From: a bacterium
GTDB lineage: Bacteria; Patescibacteria; Dojkabacteria; JAKAPS01; JAJZLI01
DNA length: 9,117 nt
Direction of reading: 5' to 3'
Assembly: GCA_021805885.1 (NCBI GenBank)
Contig: JAJZDR010000046.1
Location: forward strand, 1 to 9,117
Shown here: piece by piece, positions 57 to 7,710 of the stretch
Position numbering within the stretch: the first letter of the stretch is position 1
How the letters are laid out: every line of letters begins with the position of its first letter
Program-made: the position numbers and the translations under genes
The notes under the pieces: model-generated
The model's input: the letters and a program-made list of their open reading frames with translations, nothing else
Told to the model about the DNA's origin: nothing
Databases searched by the model: none

Positions 57-2219
57 TTAAAATAGAGATTGAGGAATTGATGTGTTATATATGCTCCCAT
101 AAAATTGAGAATTCCCAAATGTATATACAGCACCATTATTTGTTAATATGTAATAACCATTATTATTAGAATTTATGGAAAACCCCACAGGTATATCTGA
201 TGGCTGATTAGGTATGTTATACATAGAACCATAAAATTGTGTATCCCCAAATGTATATACAGCACCATCTTTTGTTATAAGATAGTAACCATTTCCAGAT
301 TGTGTCAAAGCAAAAGTAATGGTGGTTTTAACAGGTGCGTTCGGTATATTAAATACAGATCCATAAAACTGTGCATTACCGAATGTATATACTGCGCCAT
401 TTGAGGTTACAATGTAGTAGCCTCCTCCTGATGGTGTTAGAGCAAAAGAGATAGGTGTCCTGTCTGGTACTGCTGAAGCCGGTATATTGAAGAGTGATCC
501 ATAGAAGACTGCATCCCCAAATGTATACACTCCTCCATCAGTTGTTAGAACATAATACCCCTTTCCTGTTGGAGTTGGGACAATACTAACTGGAGTTTTC
601 ACAGGAGCATTAGGTATATTAAACACAGATCCATAAAATCCTGCATCTCCAAATGTATATATTCCCCCATCCTGGGTTAGTATGTAGTATCCTTTTTTGT
701 CAGGAGTTGTTGCCGCCATTACAGGAGTACGGTTAGGTATAGTTCCTGTAATTGTTGTTAAATCACCATAAAATGTACCTGCACCAAACGTATATACCTT
801 TCCATTTTGTCCAAGTATATTATATTCCTCTCCGGAATTTTGAATTTGTAACATTGAATTTATATTCAAAAGTCCATAACCATATGTATTATTTATTCCT
901 CCTCCAAGCCGAGTTGAAGATTCTTTAAAAAGCAAATTGATACTTTGTGGATTTTGTACTCCATATCGAGCATCGTACAAAGCTATTGCTGCAACAGCTT
1001 GAGGTGCAGAAAAAGATGTCCCTGCCAAATACTCATTTGAGAATGATGTATAGGATGTTACATTGTTGCTATCATAACCTGTGTATGTTTGTTGATATAC
1101 TAAAGGTGTGTTATATCCTACAGGTGCAACTAATGTCTGACAATTACCCAGAGAAGAACAACCATAATTGGAATAGGAGGTTAATAAATTTTGTGAGTTA
1201 GAAGCTCCAACAGCTATAACCCCAGGGTAACCAGCTGGATATGCTAGGGATGAAGATGATTCATTCCCTGATGATGCAACAACTGTAATTCCGTTATTAA
1301 TAGCATCCTCTAGTTCTGTCTCCTCAGCAGAAGATGGAGTCATAGATTCTATTGATAAATTTATGACATTTGCATGATGGTCTATAGCCCACTGTATTCC
1401 CATTATCTCCGCAGATACTGGAACCCCCTGGGAGTTTCCTATCTTTACAGGCATGATAGTAGAGTTGAAAGCAATTCCTGCAGTCCCATATTGTGTTGAT
1501 CCAGAAGCATCATTGTTGGTGGACGACGCAATAACTCCTGTTACATACGTTCCGTGTCCTACACTATCATATGGATGATATTCATTTACAGTCTGATTAT
1601 TGTATACAGCTAAAGCATTATATGGATCTGTGATATTTAAACTTGCAAGTGATGGAGCTTGCCCATACACTGTTCCCGTTAGTGGATTTGTATAGTTTGT
1701 ATACGCAACCCCACTATCAAGTACTGCAACTATAATATTTGAAGATCCTCCCAAAGATGATGTAAACCCTGAATTGGATACTACAGGAGCATTAATCATA
1801 AAGAGATTCTTTTGATTATTAATATCTACATTGTTTGGAAGCGTTGAGAAAGATCTTATATAGTTAGGTGTAACAGATTTAACATTGGTTGTCTCCTCTA
1901 ATCCTGTTAGAAAATTCTTATAACTCTCATTTTGAGGTCTTTTTACTATTGCAATAGAGCTATTTACATTTGACACCGAAGGTCCCTCTAGTTTGGGGGA
2001 TAATTCTCCGGACCCAGATCCAGATCCAGACCTATTTTTATATACAACAATAGCCTCATTGCTATTGTAATTCTGGTTATGGATAAGAGAGTATACTTTA
2101 GATTGAGGACTCGGTTGATTTGTGGTGGTTGAATCTGAGGCATAAGCATTAATTCCAACACACAAAGGTATTATAAATAAGGATAAAACTAATATTTTAA
2201 TACTTATTTTTCTATTCAT
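57..2219 (-). CDS. Secreted subtilisin-like (S8 family) serine protease with C-terminal six-unit repeat module
   Basis: A 720-aa exported endopeptidase. Residues 1-27 form a signal peptide (basic MNRK, hydrophobic core, cleavage near AYA). Residues about 55-125 look like an I9-type prodomain, interrupted by a Gly-Ser tract at 64-71. The catalytic domain (about 135-460) shows the S8 triad: Asp168 in VAVLDSGV, His222 in GHGTYVTGVIA and Ser402 in AGTSFSAP, with oxyanion Asn319 in SSGN. Cys354 and Cys360 could form a disulfide. Residues about 465-720 are six repeats also found in the upstream GH18 protein. There is no C-terminal membrane segment or LPXTG motif. The ATG at 2219 follows an AGGAG ribosome binding site that overlaps the GH18 stop codon, so the pair is probably one operon with coupled translation. 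Family and activity are secure from the motifs; the substrate and the role of the repeats are unknown. Confidence 0.95.
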   Translation of the reverse strand: MNRKISIKILVLSLFIIPLCVGINAYASDSTTTNQPSPQSKVYSLIHNQNYNSNEAIVVYKNRSGSGSGSGELSPKLEGPSVSNVNSSIAIVKRPQNESYKNFLTGLEETTNVKSVTPNYIRSFSTLPNNVDINNQKNLFMINAPVVSNSGFTSSLGGSSNIIVAVLDSGVAYTNYTNPLTGTVYGQAPSLASLNITDPYNALAVYNNQTVNEYHPYDSVGHGTYVTGVIASSTNNDASGSTQYGTAGIAFNSTIMPVKIGNSQGVPVSAEIMGIQWAIDHHANVINLSIESMTPSSAEETELEDAINNGITVVASSGNESSSSLAYPAGYPGVIAVGASNSQNLLTSYSNYGCSSLGNCQTLVAPVGYNTPLVYQQTYTGYDSNNVTSYTSFSNEYLAGTSFSAPQAVAAIALYDARYGVQNPQSINLLFKESSTRLGGGINNTYGYGLLNINSMLQIQNSGEEYNILGQNGKVYTFGAGTFYGDLTTITGTIPNRTPVMAATTPDKKGYYILTQDGGIYTFGDAGFYGSVFNIPNAPVKTPVSIVPTPTGKGYYVLTTDGGVYTFGDAVFYGSLFNIPASAVPDRTPISFALTPSGGGYYIVTSNGAVYTFGNAQFYGSVFNIPNAPVKTTITFALTQSGNGYYLITKDGAVYTFGDTQFYGSMYNIPNQPSDIPVGFSINSNNNGYYILTNNGAVYTFGNSQFYGSIYNTSIPQSLF
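60..827 (-). repeat. Six-unit protein repeat module of the protease (possible beta-propeller)
   Basis: Protease residues about 465-720 hold six units of 44-46 residues. The core motif is GYYxLTxDGGVYTFGDAxFYGS followed by a xFNIPNAPVKTPxxxxxTPSG-like linker. The first unit (NILGQNGKVYTFGAGTFYGD) is the most diverged. Units 2 and 4 share GSVFNIPNAPVKT, while unit 3 has NIPASAVPDRTP. Six short beta-rich units suggest a six-bladed propeller. Similar GDGGIFSFGDAxFYGS-type repeats are known from secreted actinobacterial proteins. The fold is inferred, not demonstrated. Confidence 0.85.
2010..2032 (-). repeat. GGATCT hexamer tract encoding Gly-Ser repeat in the protease prodomain
   Basis: On the coding strand GGTCT, GGATCT, GGATCT and GGGTCC follow in tandem and encode SGSGSGSG (residues 64-71) inside the predicted prodomain. 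The hexamers match those making up the 15-bp palindromic unit found in other genes of this window, but read in the opposite orientation. It may be a decayed relative of that element or independent microsatellite expansion. Confidence 0.55.
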
Positions 2220-2222
2220 TGT

Positions 2223-2227
2223 CTCCT
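2223..2227 (-). promoter_or_regulatory. Shine-Dalgarno AGGAG for the protease, overlapping the GH18 stop codon
   Basis: The minus strand reads TAGGAGACAATG. The TAG is the stop codon of the GH18 gene, AGGAG is the ribosome binding site and ATG starts the protease. A ribosome finishing GH18 therefore covers the next initiation region, so translational coupling is likely. It fixes the protease start. It is one of only two clear SD sequences in the window. Confidence 0.8.
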
Positions 2228-4361
2228 ATTGTATAACATTAATATTGGAAGTGGAATTAAAATTACCAATCCCAGTTCCATCATATGTAGCATTACCAAA
2301 TGTATATACACCACCGTCCTGGGTTAGGATATAGTAACCTTGATTTTGAGGAGTAACAGATAAAGCCTTAGGGGTTTTTACAGGTGCACTTGGTATATTA
2401 AACATGGATCCTTCAAATACTGCATCTCCAAATGTGTACACACCACCATCAGCTGTTATAAGGTAATAACCATTGCCTGATGGGGTCAAAGCAAAAGTGA
2501 CAGTTGTCTTTACTGGAGCATTCGGTATGTTAAATACAGATCCATAGAATTGAGCGTCCCCAAATGTATATACAGCTCCATTTGAGGTTACAATATAGTA
2601 GCCTCCTCCTGATGGTGTTAGAGCAAATGAGACAGGTGTCCTGTCTGGTATGGCAGATGCAGGAATATTGTATAGTGACCCATGAAATACTGCATCCCCA
2701 AATGTATACACTCCACCATCGGCTGTTAGCACATAATAACCATTACCAGACGGTGTTGTTACAATTGAAACTGGAGTTTTAACTGGAGCATTAGGTATAT
2801 TAAATACAGAGCCATAGAATTTTGCATTACCAAAGGTATATATGCCTCCATCCTGAGTTAGTATATAGTAGCCAAGATCTGATGCTGTTGTTGCAATATT
2901 TACAGCATTATTATTTGGAGCTCCATTTACATATGACATGTCTCCATAATAATTGGCGTTCCCAAATGTTAGGACTCGACCATGTCCAGATAGAAGATAG
3001 TATGCCGATGCTGTCGATGAGAAAACAGTGTTTGATATAAAGAACTGATTTAGTGGATTCCACAAAGCAAGGGATGGTTCTTGATAACCTAAAGTCCACA
3101 AACTTACGCCACGAAGATTATTATCAAGTATTTGTTGATAAGTTAGGGATAAAGATTCTGGATTCTCATAAAATCCTTCCCTCATTTGATCGCCAGAGGC
3201 GCAATTTGGTGGAGTATTATTTGATGGATAACAATATCCATACCATGGGGTAGAGGATATTGAATCCCAATGTTTTGTACTCGCATTCTTGTATTGATCA
3301 TTAGTTTGACCATAAGGTTCTTCTATGCCAGTATTTGCTATTGCATTTGCATAAAGGTTGAAGGATGTTGTTGCAGTATCATTTCCATAATATGGTACTC
3401 CAAAAATTATCTTGTTTGCTGGAGCTATCGATGCATAATCCTTCATAGCTTGTTTTACATCATACCAAAAAGGACCATTCCCGTTGTTATAACCAGTCAA
3501 TGGTGCATTAGGATAGGCTTGAGCTGAAGATGAAGTATAAAAATCGTAAGCCATTACATTTATTGCATCTGTAACGTTAGCAAGCGCTGGAATATTATAT
3601 AATGACCCAGTCCATCTTGCTGCTGATGCAAAAGTATCAACACTAATAAAAGATCCTGGGATTTGAGAGTGCATCTGGTTGGTCAGGTTAGATACAAATG
3701 TTGTAAAATTATTTATTGTTGCTTGACTAGGGGTTCCATCAGTAGATGGGTTGTATTCAAAGTCTATATTTACTCCCTGAAGATTGAATGAGTTTACTTC
3801 TGATATAGTGTTGGTAATAAGATTTTGTGCTACAGCTGGTGTATTTACAACACTTTGTATGTCAGAGAGATTAAAAATTTTAATTGTTAATACTACTCTC
3901 ACATTACTTTGATGTGCTAGATTTACCATATCTACAAATTGCTGAGAGTGTAACCCTTGATACCCAGGATCGTTAGGTGCATTTGTACCAAAATTTCCAC
4001 TAGAGTTTGATGTTATACCAAAATATGCGATTGTTGTTAGATTGTTATATTCATATGATTGATAAGCATTGCTTGTCAAATCCCAATAAGGGGCAAATCC
4101 CATAACCTCTTTTTCTTGCCCAGATGGTCCATAGGCTGCAAAGGGTCTGGACCCAAAGGATCTAGATCCAAATTGTGTTGGCATAGGATTTGGTTTTGTT
4201 GTTGCAGGTTTGAAATTATATGTCTTATTCTTGTATTGATTGTTTAAAAGTATATTGCCAATTTGAGAATTTGGAGGTGGGGTCTGTGCAAATACTGACC
4301 CTGTAAATAAAAACAAAGAAAAGAATACTGATATAGATAGAAATATTTTGATTCTACTCAT
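2226..4361 (-). CDS. Secreted glycoside hydrolase family 18 protein with C-terminal six-unit repeat module
   Basis: A 711-aa exported GH18-type (chitinase/peptidoglycan-glycosidase superfamily) protein. The start used is ATG 4361, where a clean signal peptide begins (MSRIKIF, hydrophobic core, cleavage near VFA at 25). An in-frame TTG at 4379 would only add six residues and falls upstream of the predicted transcript start. A linker with FGSRSFGSRPF (about 64-74) carries a DNA repeat insertion. The TIM-barrel domain spans about 86-440: MGFAPYW at its first strand, catalytic LQGVNIDFEY with Asp200 and general acid Glu202, MAYDFY (270-275), and GVSLWTLGYQ near the end with Trp422. Cys377 and Cys387 could pair. 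The usual DGxDxDxE reads QGVNIDFE, so the first Asp is Gln. Residues about 453-711 are the repeat module shared with the protease. The barrel resembles bacterial cell-wall GH18 enzymes more than large chitinases, but the substrate cannot be told. Confidence 0.92.
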   Translation of the reverse strand: MSRIKIFLSISVFFSLFLFTGSVFAQTPPPNSQIGNILLNNQYKNKTYNFKPATTKPNPMPTQFGSRSFGSRPFAAYGPSGQEKEVMGFAPYWDLTSNAYQSYEYNNLTTIAYFGITSNSSGNFGTNAPNDPGYQGLHSQQFVDMVNLAHQSNVRVVLTIKIFNLSDIQSVVNTPAVAQNLITNTISEVNSFNLQGVNIDFEYNPSTDGTPSQATINNFTTFVSNLTNQMHSQIPGSFISVDTFASAARWTGSLYNIPALANVTDAINVMAYDFYTSSSAQAYPNAPLTGYNNGNGPFWYDVKQAMKDYASIAPANKIIFGVPYYGNDTATTSFNLYANAIANTGIEEPYGQTNDQYKNASTKHWDSISSTPWYGYCYPSNNTPPNCASGDQMREGFYENPESLSLTYQQILDNNLRGVSLWTLGYQEPSLALWNPLNQFFISNTVFSSTASAYYLLSGHGRVLTFGNANYYGDMSYVNGAPNNNAVNIATTASDLGYYILTQDGGIYTFGNAKFYGSVFNIPNAPVKTPVSIVTTPSGNGYYVLTADGGVYTFGDAVFHGSLYNIPASAIPDRTPVSFALTPSGGGYYIVTSNGAVYTFGDAQFYGSVFNIPNAPVKTTVTFALTPSGNGYYLITADGGVYTFGDAVFEGSMFNIPSAPVKTPKALSVTPQNQGYYILTQDGGVYTFGNATYDGTGIGNFNSTSNINVIQ
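2229..3005 (-). repeat. Six-unit protein repeat module of the GH18 protein, colinear with that of the protease
   Basis: GH18 residues about 453-711 contain six 44-46-residue units with the same VYTFGDAxFYGS core as the protease. Units 2-5 match the protease units one for one in order: NIPNAPVKTPVSIV, then NIPASAIPDRTP, then NIPNAPVKTT. This indicates duplication of the whole module, not independent repeat growth. The first unit (AYYLLSGHGRVLTFGNANYYGD) and the last (ending in TSNINVIQ) are the most diverged, as expected at module edges. Confidence 0.85.
4143..4172. repeat. Tandem pair of the 15-bp palindromic unit, in-frame in the GH18 gene
   Basis: Two 15-bp units, GGGTCTGGACCCAAA (4143-4157) and GGATCTAGATCCAAA (4158-4172), lie in the linker between signal peptide and catalytic domain. 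GGATCTAGATCC is a perfect 12-bp palindrome. The two units can fold on each other into a 12-bp stem with an AAA loop and few mismatches. The coding strand reads GSRSFGSRPF in the same frame as the related insertion in the 201-aa gene. Confidence 0.75.
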
Positions 4362-5848: not shown

Positions 5849-6454
5849 TTAATATGAGTAATGTATACAATGAAAATCATTGAGCCTTAAAGTTGAAAAT
5901 GTTAACACTGCTCCTAAAAAACAAGGGGATCTGGATCCAATGGATCTGGATCCAAGGAAACAAGGTCCAGATTTATGATACCTATCTTCTATATATTCAA
6001 GATCTTGAGGGTACTCTGTACTTACCTGATCTAAAAGTTCTGCTATACTACAACCTATACCTTTATTTCCAATTATTATTGCTACCCTTCTTATATCCAC
6101 TAAAAGATCAGAACCTCTAATTTTGCGAATAAGACTTTCTTGAACTTTTGGTATTGGTAATTCAAATTTTTGATGTAATGCTCTAATATCTGAATAAATA
6201 CCAAAAGATCCTCTCCTGAATAAATCATCCTTTCTCTCCCCATTTTCTGTATCAATGGGGACTCCTCCTACACGTCTTGTTATTAGATCTAAAATTTTTA
6301 CTAAATGAGGCTGGGTTCTTTCAAATTCTTCTCTGGTTATTCCTTCTGGTTTATAATCAAGTTCAAAAAGAGATGGGAATCCTGGAGATCTTTTTATATC
6401 TGGATTTTGAATCCTTTGATCTCTCCTTACTAATATTTGCTCTACTGTATCCAC
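5849..6454 (-). CDS. Unassigned cytosolic protein, C-terminally shortened paralogue of the 280-aa protein
   Basis: A 201-aa protein starting with GTG at 6454; no family recognised, no signal peptide or membrane segment. It aligns along most of its length with residues about 18-166 of the neighbouring 280-aa protein. Shared points include GFPS/GIPS, QPxLxKIL, FRRGSFGIYSDI/FRQGALTIYADM, GSDLLVDI/NSDLLAII, DLEYIEDRY/DFEYIKRKY and LGAVLTFSTLRL/LGALFIFSALKL. About 110 residues of the paralogue C-terminus are missing: after LRLND it ends with an unrelated FHCIHYSY. Just before that, residues PCFLGSRSIGSRSPCFLG come from an in-frame 39-bp repeat insertion. It could be a functional short version or a decaying duplicate; the intact frame and its own promoter favour expression. 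GTG is preferred because the predicted transcript begins at it. Confidence 0.75.
   Translation of the reverse strand: MDTVEQILVRRDQRIQNPDIKRSPGFPSLFELDYKPEGITREEFERTQPHLVKILDLITRRVGGVPIDTENGERKDDLFRRGSFGIYSDIRALHQKFELPIPKVQESLIRKIRGSDLLVDIRRVAIIIGNKGIGCSIAELLDQVSTEYPQDLEYIEDRYHKSGPCFLGSRSIGSRSPCFLGAVLTFSTLRLNDFHCIHYSY
5919..5926. repeat. 8-bp direct repeat, left copy, flanking the inserted palindromic element
   Basis: AAACAAGG at 5919-5926 recurs at 5958-5965, directly flanking the 31-bp element. This resembles a target-site duplication, or the edges of a 39-bp slippage duplication. On the coding strand it encodes the repeated PCFLG. Confidence 0.6.
5927..5957. repeat. Tandem pair of the 15-bp palindromic unit, inserted in-frame in the 201-aa gene
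   Basis: Unit 1 is GGATCTGGATCCAAT (5927-5941); unit 2 is GGATCTGGATCCAAG (5942-5956). The plus strand can fold into a 12-bp stem with an AAT loop; ten pairs are Watson-Crick and the two central ones are G-T. On the coding strand the pair encodes GSRSIGSRS. Comparison with the 280-aa paralogue, which lacks it, shows that it is an insertion. Confidence 0.8.
5958..5965. repeat. 8-bp direct repeat, right copy
   Basis: AAACAAGG, identical to 5919-5926 and exactly 39 bp away. The unit plus one flank is 13 codons, so the frame is kept. Confidence 0.6.
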
Positions 6455-6533: not shown

Positions 6534-6577
6534 GGATCAAGATTTAAGGCCCTAGTCCCGATCTAGGTCCAAGGAAG
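6534..6577 (+). repeat. Degenerate copy of the 15-bp element in the RHH leader, with hairpin and SD
   Basis: GATCTAGGTCCAAGGAAG at 6560-6577 matches the right end of the element in the 201-aa gene (5943-5960) at 15 of 18 positions. GGATCAAGATTTAAG (6534-6548) resembles another unit. GGCCCTAG (6548-6555) pairs with CTAGGTCC (6563-6570) with one mismatch and a 7-nt loop. The stem ends directly before the SD AAGGA (6571-6575), 10 nt from ATG 6586. It may be an RHH operator or an mRNA hairpin affecting initiation, both inferred. Confidence 0.5.
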
Positions 6578-6585
6578 ATAAAATT

Positions 6586-6765
6586 ATGAGTACACAAACA
6601 GTTGATATTACAATTGATGAAAAGCTACTTAGAGAAATGGATCAAGCAGTAAAACAGGATCTAGGAAGTAGGAGTAAGTACTTTAGAAGACTAGCTATTA
6701 TAAATTTAGATATACGTAAACGTTGGAATGACCTTTTATCTTCTGGAAATGTATCAATATTATAA
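6586..6765 (+). CDS. Small ribbon-helix-helix (CopG/Arc-type) DNA-binding protein
   Basis: A 59-aa protein ending at TAA 6763-6765. The N-terminal QTVDITIDE is the beta-strand of an RHH fold. EKLLREMDQAVKQDL is helix A, and GSRSKYFRRLAIINLDI is the turn and helix B with the typical SRSxYxRxL pattern. Such dimers bind short palindromes and often act as autoregulating antitoxins or plasmid-type repressors. No toxin gene follows: the next 102 bp are gene-free and the next gene is convergent. The SD AAGGA with 10-nt spacing supports this start. The gene diverges from the 201-aa gene, so it might control the shared 131-bp region. The RHH assignment is good; an antitoxin role is unsupported. Confidence 0.8.
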   Translation: MSTQTVDITIDEKLLREMDQAVKQDLGSRSKYFRRLAIINLDIRKRWNDLLSSGNVSIL

Positions 6766-6867: not shown

Positions 6868-7710
6868 CTACCTGCTTTTTTTGCTTATTGATCGTACTAC
6901 CATATCAAAAAAATCATGAGTAACTCCATGTTCATATTTTGATGGTACTGCTTTATTTATTTTTTTTATAATGAATCCTGATATTCCATCAATATTACCT
7001 TTATATTTTTCAATAGTGGACAACCTAAGGTAAAGTAGCCTCCAAATTGTCACTTGTTCTGCCTGAGTAATAGTATCTCCATTACGTAATTCAGTGATTT
7101 TACCAATAATGGCACTCTTCCATCTTTTTGAGCTATAATAAAGAGGATTATATGTGAGAGGATTATCTTGATTATCACTACCTTTTAAATAAGGATCTTT
7201 TTCTCCATCTAATTTTAATGCAGAGAATATAAATAAAGCTCCCAACGTTTCAGGGGAATAAAGGTTGTGAGGATACTTCCTTTTAATATATTCAAAATCA
7301 TGAGGATGTCTATGATGAATATCTCCGATAAATTGATGCAGTACATCTCCTTCCATCAGGCCCTCCTGTATAAATCTCTGTATAATCGCTAATAAATCTG
7401 AATTTATGATCTTTTCGAAACTAGAACTTGATAACTGTGGCAATGTTATTCCTTGTTCCAAGACCAATTCTTGCATATCTGCATATATGGTTAGAGCTCC
7501 TTGTCTGAATTGCTTTTGCCTATCCATTGCGGAGGTATCTTTATTAGAAGAATCAGTCATAACACTTAGTATCTTGGCTAAATTAGGCTGCTTGTTCTCA
7601 AATTTGTCTACAGGTATCTCTGGGGCTTCTATATCTTGACGAGGAAATGAAGGTATTCCATATTCTATATCATCTATTTCACTATAAAATGTTTCACCTA
7701 AATCGGACAT
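6868..7710 (-). CDS. Unassigned cytosolic protein, full-length paralogue of the 201-aa protein
   Basis: A 280-aa protein with no recognised family, signal peptide or transmembrane segment. It appears mostly helical and charged. Residues about 18-166 align with the 201-aa neighbour (QPNLAKIL, FRQGALTIYADM, NSDLLAII, HDFEYIKRKYP, LGALFIFSALKLD). The remaining part (about 167-280) is unique to it here: YNPLYYSSKRWKSAI, QAEQVTIWRLLYLRLSTIEKY, and a basic tail ISKKSR. The Arg/Lys-rich C-terminus might contact nucleic acid, but no motif proves this. It starts at ATG 7710, about 20 nt downstream of the predicted transcript start, without an SD. It is convergent with the RHH gene and divergent from the glycosyltransferase gene. 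Function is unknown. Confidence 0.85.
   Translation of the reverse strand: MSDLGETFYSEIDDIEYGIPSFPRQDIEAPEIPVDKFENKQPNLAKILSVMTDSSNKDTSAMDRQKQFRQGALTIYADMQELVLEQGITLPQLSSSSFEKIINSDLLAIIQRFIQEGLMEGDVLHQFIGDIHHRHPHDFEYIKRKYPHNLYSPETLGALFIFSALKLDGEKDPYLKGSDNQDNPLTYNPLYYSSKRWKSAIIGKITELRNGDTITQAEQVTIWRLLYLRLSTIEKYKGNIDGISGFIIKKINKAVPSKYEHGVTHDFFDMVVRSISKKSR

Follow-up and report, generated by a model that had tools for sequence, protein, structure and literature searches.

The 201-aa gene in the window, the 9,117-nt stretch of DNA analyzed here, contains in frame two tandem copies of a 15-bp palindromic unit, which raises the question of whether such units are ordinary coding repeats or a dispersed element that inserts into genes. 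A 12-bp palindrome, GGNNCYRGNNCC (usually GGATCYRGATCC), and a 3-nt spacer make up the unit, and the palindrome occurs as single copies or short tandem arrays, mostly within coding DNA, in a Patescibacteria lineage. A sequence-only reading of the window had placed tandem units in the 201-aa and GH18 genes, in the same GSRS frame and in DNA richer in GC than its surroundings, and had stated that a paralogue of the 201-aa protein lacks them. The units were found at 5927-5953 and 4143-4169, both arrays read Gly-Ser-Arg-Ser/Pro on the minus strand, their GC fractions are 0.50 and 0.52 compared to 0.34 for the window, and the 280-aa paralogue is indeed without the insertion. Both palindromes of the 201-aa gene are GGATCTGGATCC on the plus strand, with an AAT spacer. 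The pattern GGNYCTRGRNCC with at most one mismatch has 17 matches in the window versus 1.35 expected, a number reached in 0 of 200 shuffles; the count takes both strands, so one palindrome may count twice.

Genome-wide counts were made in G001 (MAG YP4.bin81), the nearest relative of the window's genome found, where orthologues of the subtilase, GH18, 439-aa, 201-aa, 280-aa, and glycosyltransferase genes lie in window order. About half of this genome was sampled as 20 blocks (L083-L102; 399,901 bases). P0002, P0005, and P0129, close homologues of two window proteins and a YP4 protein, carry the label Patescibacteria group bacterium, and comparisons with P0002, P0003, P0005, and P0126-P0129 were made at the protein level only.

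Table 1. Arrays, related sites, and genes of the window.
Feature	Position	Strand	Remarks
Two-unit array in the 201-aa gene	5927..5957	-	palindromes 5927-5938 and 5942-5953; codes GSRS-I-GSRS
Possible third, decayed unit GAAACAAGGTCC	5957..5968	-	15-bp register of the 201-aa gene array; self-set score threshold
Two-unit array GGGTCTGGACCC AAA GGATCTAGATCC AAA in GH18	4143..4172	-	palindromes GGGTCTGGACCC at 4143-4154 and GGATCTAGATCC at 4158-4169; 30 bp missing in the G001 orthologue
Related hexamer-stepped array GGACCCAGATCCAGATCCAGACCT in the subtilase	2010..2033	-	codes (SG)n
Two adjoining decayed palindromes, intergenic	6548..6570		each 1 mismatch from the pattern; upstream of the 59-aa ORF
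201-aa gene, array host	5849..6454	-	no Pfam match
GH18 protein	2226..4361	-	array in N-terminal linker; C-terminal YTFGDAxFYGS-type repeats
Subtilase (Peptidase_S8)	57..2219	-	family scan; C-terminal repeats of the GH18 YTFGDAxFYGS type
280-aa paralogue of the 201-aa protein	6868..7710	-	without the insertion

The C-terminal repeats common to the subtilase and GH18 proteins (57-4361) have weak RCC1-like matches and are perhaps a common surface module. At the hexamer-stepped site of the subtilase, the Gly-Ser linker of the G001 orthologue is a different one. The decayed intergenic palindromes lie just upstream of a 59-aa ORF (6586-6765, plus strand) that starts MSTQTVDITIDEKLL and has no Pfam match; we take it to resemble a small DNA-binding protein of the ribbon-helix-helix type. 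In G001 the syntenic gap (L103) leaves too little room for this ORF.

The palindrome is far in excess in G001. In the half-genome sample GGATCTGGATCC is the top-ranked 12-mer, seen 20 times versus 0.03 expected (ranking by n ln(n/expected) of words with 10 or more occurrences). Perfect 5+2+5 palindromes starting with GG number 63 in the sample compared to 9.2 simulated; the second-largest excess in number belongs to those starting with CT (56 versus 35.2). G001 as a whole has 49 copies of GGRYCYRGRYCC and a single copy of its reversed control, as opposed to 22 and 36, respectively, summed over 56 other genomes, and doublets number 12 in G001 (control 0) and none in those 56. When the species-genome collection was scanned for the doublet with an AAN spacer, 70 stretches matched, four of them (5 matches) in YP4.bin81 at loci with a GC content of 0.29-0.31. 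The other 66, many of them single matches in GC-rich actinobacteria, were taken for chance. Viral contigs had 0 stretches with the doublet pattern and nothing confirmed as related to the 201-aa protein, and there was no further carrier of the 201-aa gene or the doublet among the genomes of G001's family (8) and order (10). The 10-mer TTACCATTAG is also over-represented in the G001 sample (14 versus 1.69 expected).

Reading frame and host were determined for 56 palindromic sites in the sample, a count that includes AT-rich background palindromes, two EVPEP low-complexity sites, GGGTTYRAACCC words that presumably resemble tRNA arms, and a near-duplicate pair at two contig starts. The Gly-X-X-X frame accounts for 40 sites (mostly GSGS/GSRS) and a second frame (DPDP/LVLVP) for 10; no site uses the third, and the remaining 6 fall between genes. 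Called ORFs cover 93% of the sample and contain 50 of the 56. The third frame is partly closed by the code because a CTAG centre puts TAG in frame. The near-duplicate pair lies in a 94% identical stretch, carrying GGTACTAGTACC, with which two G001 contigs start (L083:1-177 and L095:1-176). Family scans identify guanylate kinase (gmk), a SpoVD/FtsI-like PBP, RsmH, TsaD, IMP dehydrogenase (guaB), S20, ValS, UvrC, MurC, and RecJ as hosts, the matches for guanylate kinase, PBP, IMP dehydrogenase, and MurC scoring below NCBI's cut-offs. Further hosts are trigger factor, S17, an HtrA-like protease, a glycosyltransferase, a polysaccharide exporter, and a TraG-like ATPase, and some hosts have no family match (L083:3170-3550 and L110:2837-3436). 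In G001, GSGS is spelled GGATCTGGATCC 18 times and GSRS is spelled GGATCCAGATCC once; in the window, the 201-aa gene has both of its units in the GSRS orientation. The skew may reflect selection against Arg or an insertion bias.

The arms of the palindrome stay complementary beyond what the protein requires. Among tetrapeptides of the form G[STAP][GRS][STAP] in 384 ORFs, 34 of 123 are written as palindromes compared to 0.71 from codon usage, with the near-duplicate pair at the contig starts included in the test. TCC, which most copies require at their end, makes up 6.6% of Ser codons. When GGnnCYRGnnCC words were picked irrespective of their inner pairing, both inner pairs were complementary in 38 of 50 versus 16.3 in shuffled words (0 of 5000 shuffles), and in 14 of the 23 outside the 5' AT type. 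The corresponding word with a purine-pyrimidine centre, GGnnCRYGnnCC, occurs 0 times. The feature that is kept is arm pairing around a pyrimidine-purine centre. A palindrome longer than 12 bp was rejected, outer-flank complementarity being not above expectation.

The sequence-only reading had both arrays folding into hairpins of about 12 bp with a 3-nt loop, and this holds for one nucleic acid at each site. A 12-bp stem with a 3-nt loop forms at 5925-5956 with the plus strand as DNA (z = -2.65) and at 4140-4172 with the minus strand as RNA (z = -1.79). It fails for the converse cases, 4140-4172 giving as DNA only two 4-bp hairpins (z = -1.03) and 5925-5956 giving as RNA 5+5 pairs flanking an internal loop (z = -2.44). 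With ~20 bases of flank both arrays fold no better than shuffles (z = -1.51 to +0.21), and a role as mRNA hairpins was rejected on this ground.

Presence and copy number differ between orthologous sites, often by exactly 15 bp per unit. At the GH18 site the window has two units (PTQF-GSRSF-GSRPF-AAYGP), P0005 has one GSRS(L) unit, and G001 has none; 10 more distant GH18 orthologues have no unit there. The G001 DNA reads CAATTTGCAGCA, and the window is 30 bp longer, after CAATTT. Gain is the simpler reading because the outgroups are empty. TsaD has 15 extra aa missing in 5 of 5 relatives aligned, and UvrC has 12 aa and 4+5 aa missing in 6 of 6. The first RsmH site is a GSGSK after codon 2 that is missing in P0126-P0129; the second adds 16 aa relative to P0126-P0128, and later RsmH sites vary. 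Solved homologues leave gaps of 5 and 10 aa in RecJ, 15 aa (as 6+9) at the first MurC site, and 11 aa in GuaB; 3hn7 aligns without a gap at the second MurC site. The guanylate kinase alignment stops at the insert and the ValS alignment passes over it. The array of the 201-aa gene is present as described, but the change there is not clean: the orthologues read GSRSIGSRS, GSRS, GSRSRSRSGS, or GYKS, and their lengths do not differ by multiples of 5 residues. The GYKS site, GGATATAAATCC in G001, is still a palindrome with 4-bp arms. Thirteen comparisons were made (two each for GH18, RsmH, UvrC, RecJ, and MurC and one each for TsaD, GuaB, and the 201-aa gene), and the length difference is a multiple of 5 residues in 7 of them: both GH18 comparisons, the first RsmH site, TsaD, both RecJ gaps, and the first MurC site. 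The genome-wide excess, the frame preference, and these presence/absence differences in the relative G001 support the earlier proposal of a small dispersed element tolerated in coding regions, and no conservation of the insertion at the same site was seen in distant orthologues. Beyond that proposal, the unit is defined as a 12-bp palindrome plus 3, its arms co-vary, and housekeeping genes are among its hosts.

Array structure was analyzed in 45 arrays (42 from G001 and 3 from the window). There are 22 single, 12 double, 8 triple, 2 four-unit, and 1 five-unit arrays, counting decayed units in register, and the array limits depend on a self-set score threshold. Flanking trinucleotides of the 40 in-gene arrays, oriented by gene, agree at 69 of 120 positions versus 41.7 expected (0 of 10,000 shuffles), and 8 arrays have identical flanks versus 2.7 (P = 0.0028). 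For 17 single-unit arrays, chosen by eye from the 40, the flanks agree at 26 of 51 positions versus 16.8 (P = 0.003). The unoriented test is weaker, with identical flanks in 5 of 45 arrays versus 2.1 (P = 0.048) and 67 matching positions versus 46.3 (0 of 5000). The agreement suggests a short target duplication, but decayed neighboring units may contribute in part. Array distribution is clustered (variance 5.6, mean 1.7 per block), with arrays near gmk/PBP/rsmH (L083; C2:0.6-5 kb) and uvrC/murC (L101-L102; C1:255-283 kb).

The arrays are very likely a dispersed insertion module rather than an ordinary coding repeat, and the account of them as such a module, neutral to the reading frame, is probably correct; counting against it, some hosts are Gly-Ser linkers that may be ordinary (the HtrA-like L098, and L097). 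The length differences that are not multiples of 5 residues, the merely partial flank agreement, the folding in context, the lack of pairing past 12 bp, and the absence of a known copying enzyme also weigh against it. The palindrome would insert with duplication of ~3 bp of target, and the frame would survive because 12 + 3 = 15. Arrays may then lengthen or shorten by slippage or unequal exchange, some in 6-bp steps, while hairpin or cruciform formation would keep the arms matched, either through template switching between arms or through an enzyme that recognizes the hairpin. Selection would keep insertions whose frame gives a flexible Gly-Ser-(Gly/Arg)-Ser in a loop, linker, or terminus. We judge the chances of hairpin-dependent maintenance to be evenly balanced and those of the 3-bp target duplication to be slightly lower. 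The Y1 transposase (Y1_Tnp, PF01797) has 0 matches in G001 and has matches in G004 and G006, and no mobilizing enzyme was identified. A stronger version, in which the 12-bp palindrome is itself mobile, duplicates 3 bp of target, preserves the frame, maintains its hairpin by compensatory change, and adds flexible loops to the housekeeping genes of reduced-genome Patescibacteria, is offered only tentatively. If true, this would put the mobile palindrome, at 12 bp, far below the size of the coding palindromic elements in the literature compared.

The main competitor to an insertion module is origin in situ with no mobility between genes: slippage would copy local Gly-Ser-coding seeds in increments of 15 or 6 bp, and template switching at quasi-palindromes would turn them into palindromes. 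Arms that vary from array to array yet pair, tandem arrays with decayed neighbors, and hexamer-stepped variants (window 2010-2033; P0003) would all be expected. Identical 12-mers, GGATCYRGATCC, at unrelated loci and clean gains in TsaD and UvrC, whose relatives offer no linker for expansion, make this origin unlikely. If the palindrome were instead a site recognized by its sequence, for example a DNA-uptake or chromosome-organizing word accumulated by biased uptake or selection, its genome-specific excess and mostly constant GATC core would follow; compensating pair changes in the arm bases, copies that come as tandem insertions, and a total of only 49 sites in ~0.8 Mb render such a role quite improbable.

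Two further explanations carry very little weight. The palindrome could be a by-product of ordinary low-complexity Gly-Ser linkers with biased codons, as most in-gene sites read GSGS or GSRS and a few lie in plain Gly-Ser linkers, but the 34 palindromic tetrapeptides of the codon test, the copies in the second frame and between genes, and the co-variation of the arms make it barely credible. Excision footprints of insertion sequences, consisting of terminal-repeat ends and a remaining 3-bp target duplication, would yield a 12-bp palindrome plus 3 bp with similar flanking trinucleotides. Against them, no two perfect 12-bp inverted ends in the G001 half-genome sample are separated by 100-3000 bp and accompanied by a 3-bp duplication, repeats of at least 60 bp form only 7 pairs there, and arm variation is left unexplained; we regard footprints as highly improbable.

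To our knowledge, there is no settled account of how in-frame coding palindromes spread in Rickettsia, Wolbachia, and one archaeon. A 15-bp version with 0/1/2-unit differences, paired arms, and housekeeping hosts would be a clean system for the multiplication of tiny palindromes, and it would also serve to ask how proteins acquire loops. A search of openly licensed texts gave no such element in Patescibacteria/CPR among the matches listed.

Short dispersed palindromes of bacteria include the REP (repetitive extragenic palindrome) elements with RAYT (Y1) transposases, given as 20-40 bp in PMC3733652. The present sites resemble them in being short and dispersed, but are mostly intragenic (50 of 56), and G001 is without a Y1_Tnp match. 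Unlike a MITE, the unit has no autonomous element with matching ends in the G001 half-genome sample, and the flank agreement (69 of 120 versus 41.7; identical in 8 of 40 versus 2.74) could be read as a MITE-like target-site duplication to which decayed neighbors may contribute. Mitochondrial GC clusters, double-hairpin elements, and short palindromes are described as tiny selfish-looking hairpin repeats that vary among close relatives; the behavior is analogous, but those repeats are organellar and of other sequence.

Coding palindromes are closer in kind. PARCELs (palindromic amphipathic repeat coding elements) are described in PMC2996958 as tandem coding repeats with dyad-symmetric DNA, made of 75-nt, 25-residue amphipathic units in ORFs without assigned function, often with membrane-targeting sequences. 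The present arrays have in common with them tandem coding repeats and dyad symmetry, but their units are 5-residue Gly-Ser and housekeeping proteins are also hosts; no DUF285 family appeared in Pfam scans covering 7 window proteins and 10 hosts. In-frame palindromic coding insertions in Methanocaldococcus jannaschii, as cited in PMC2996958, are alike by that description. The Rickettsia and Wolbachia elements (RPE/WPE) are, in the passages of PMC2996958, PMC10969869, and PMC3767692, dispersed palindromic repeats in frame in protein genes, including housekeeping genes, with an RPE length of 100-150 bp. Like these elements, the present unit is dispersed above chance in G001, lies in frame in genes, and is missing from orthologues (TsaD, GH18, and UvrC). 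It differs in its 15-bp length (about a tenth of an RPE), its tandem arrays of 1-5 units, its variable paired arms, and a host outside Rickettsiales, its homologues bearing the Patescibacteria label. On this comparison we class the unit by its behavior as a coding palindromic element and do not place it in the RPE family.
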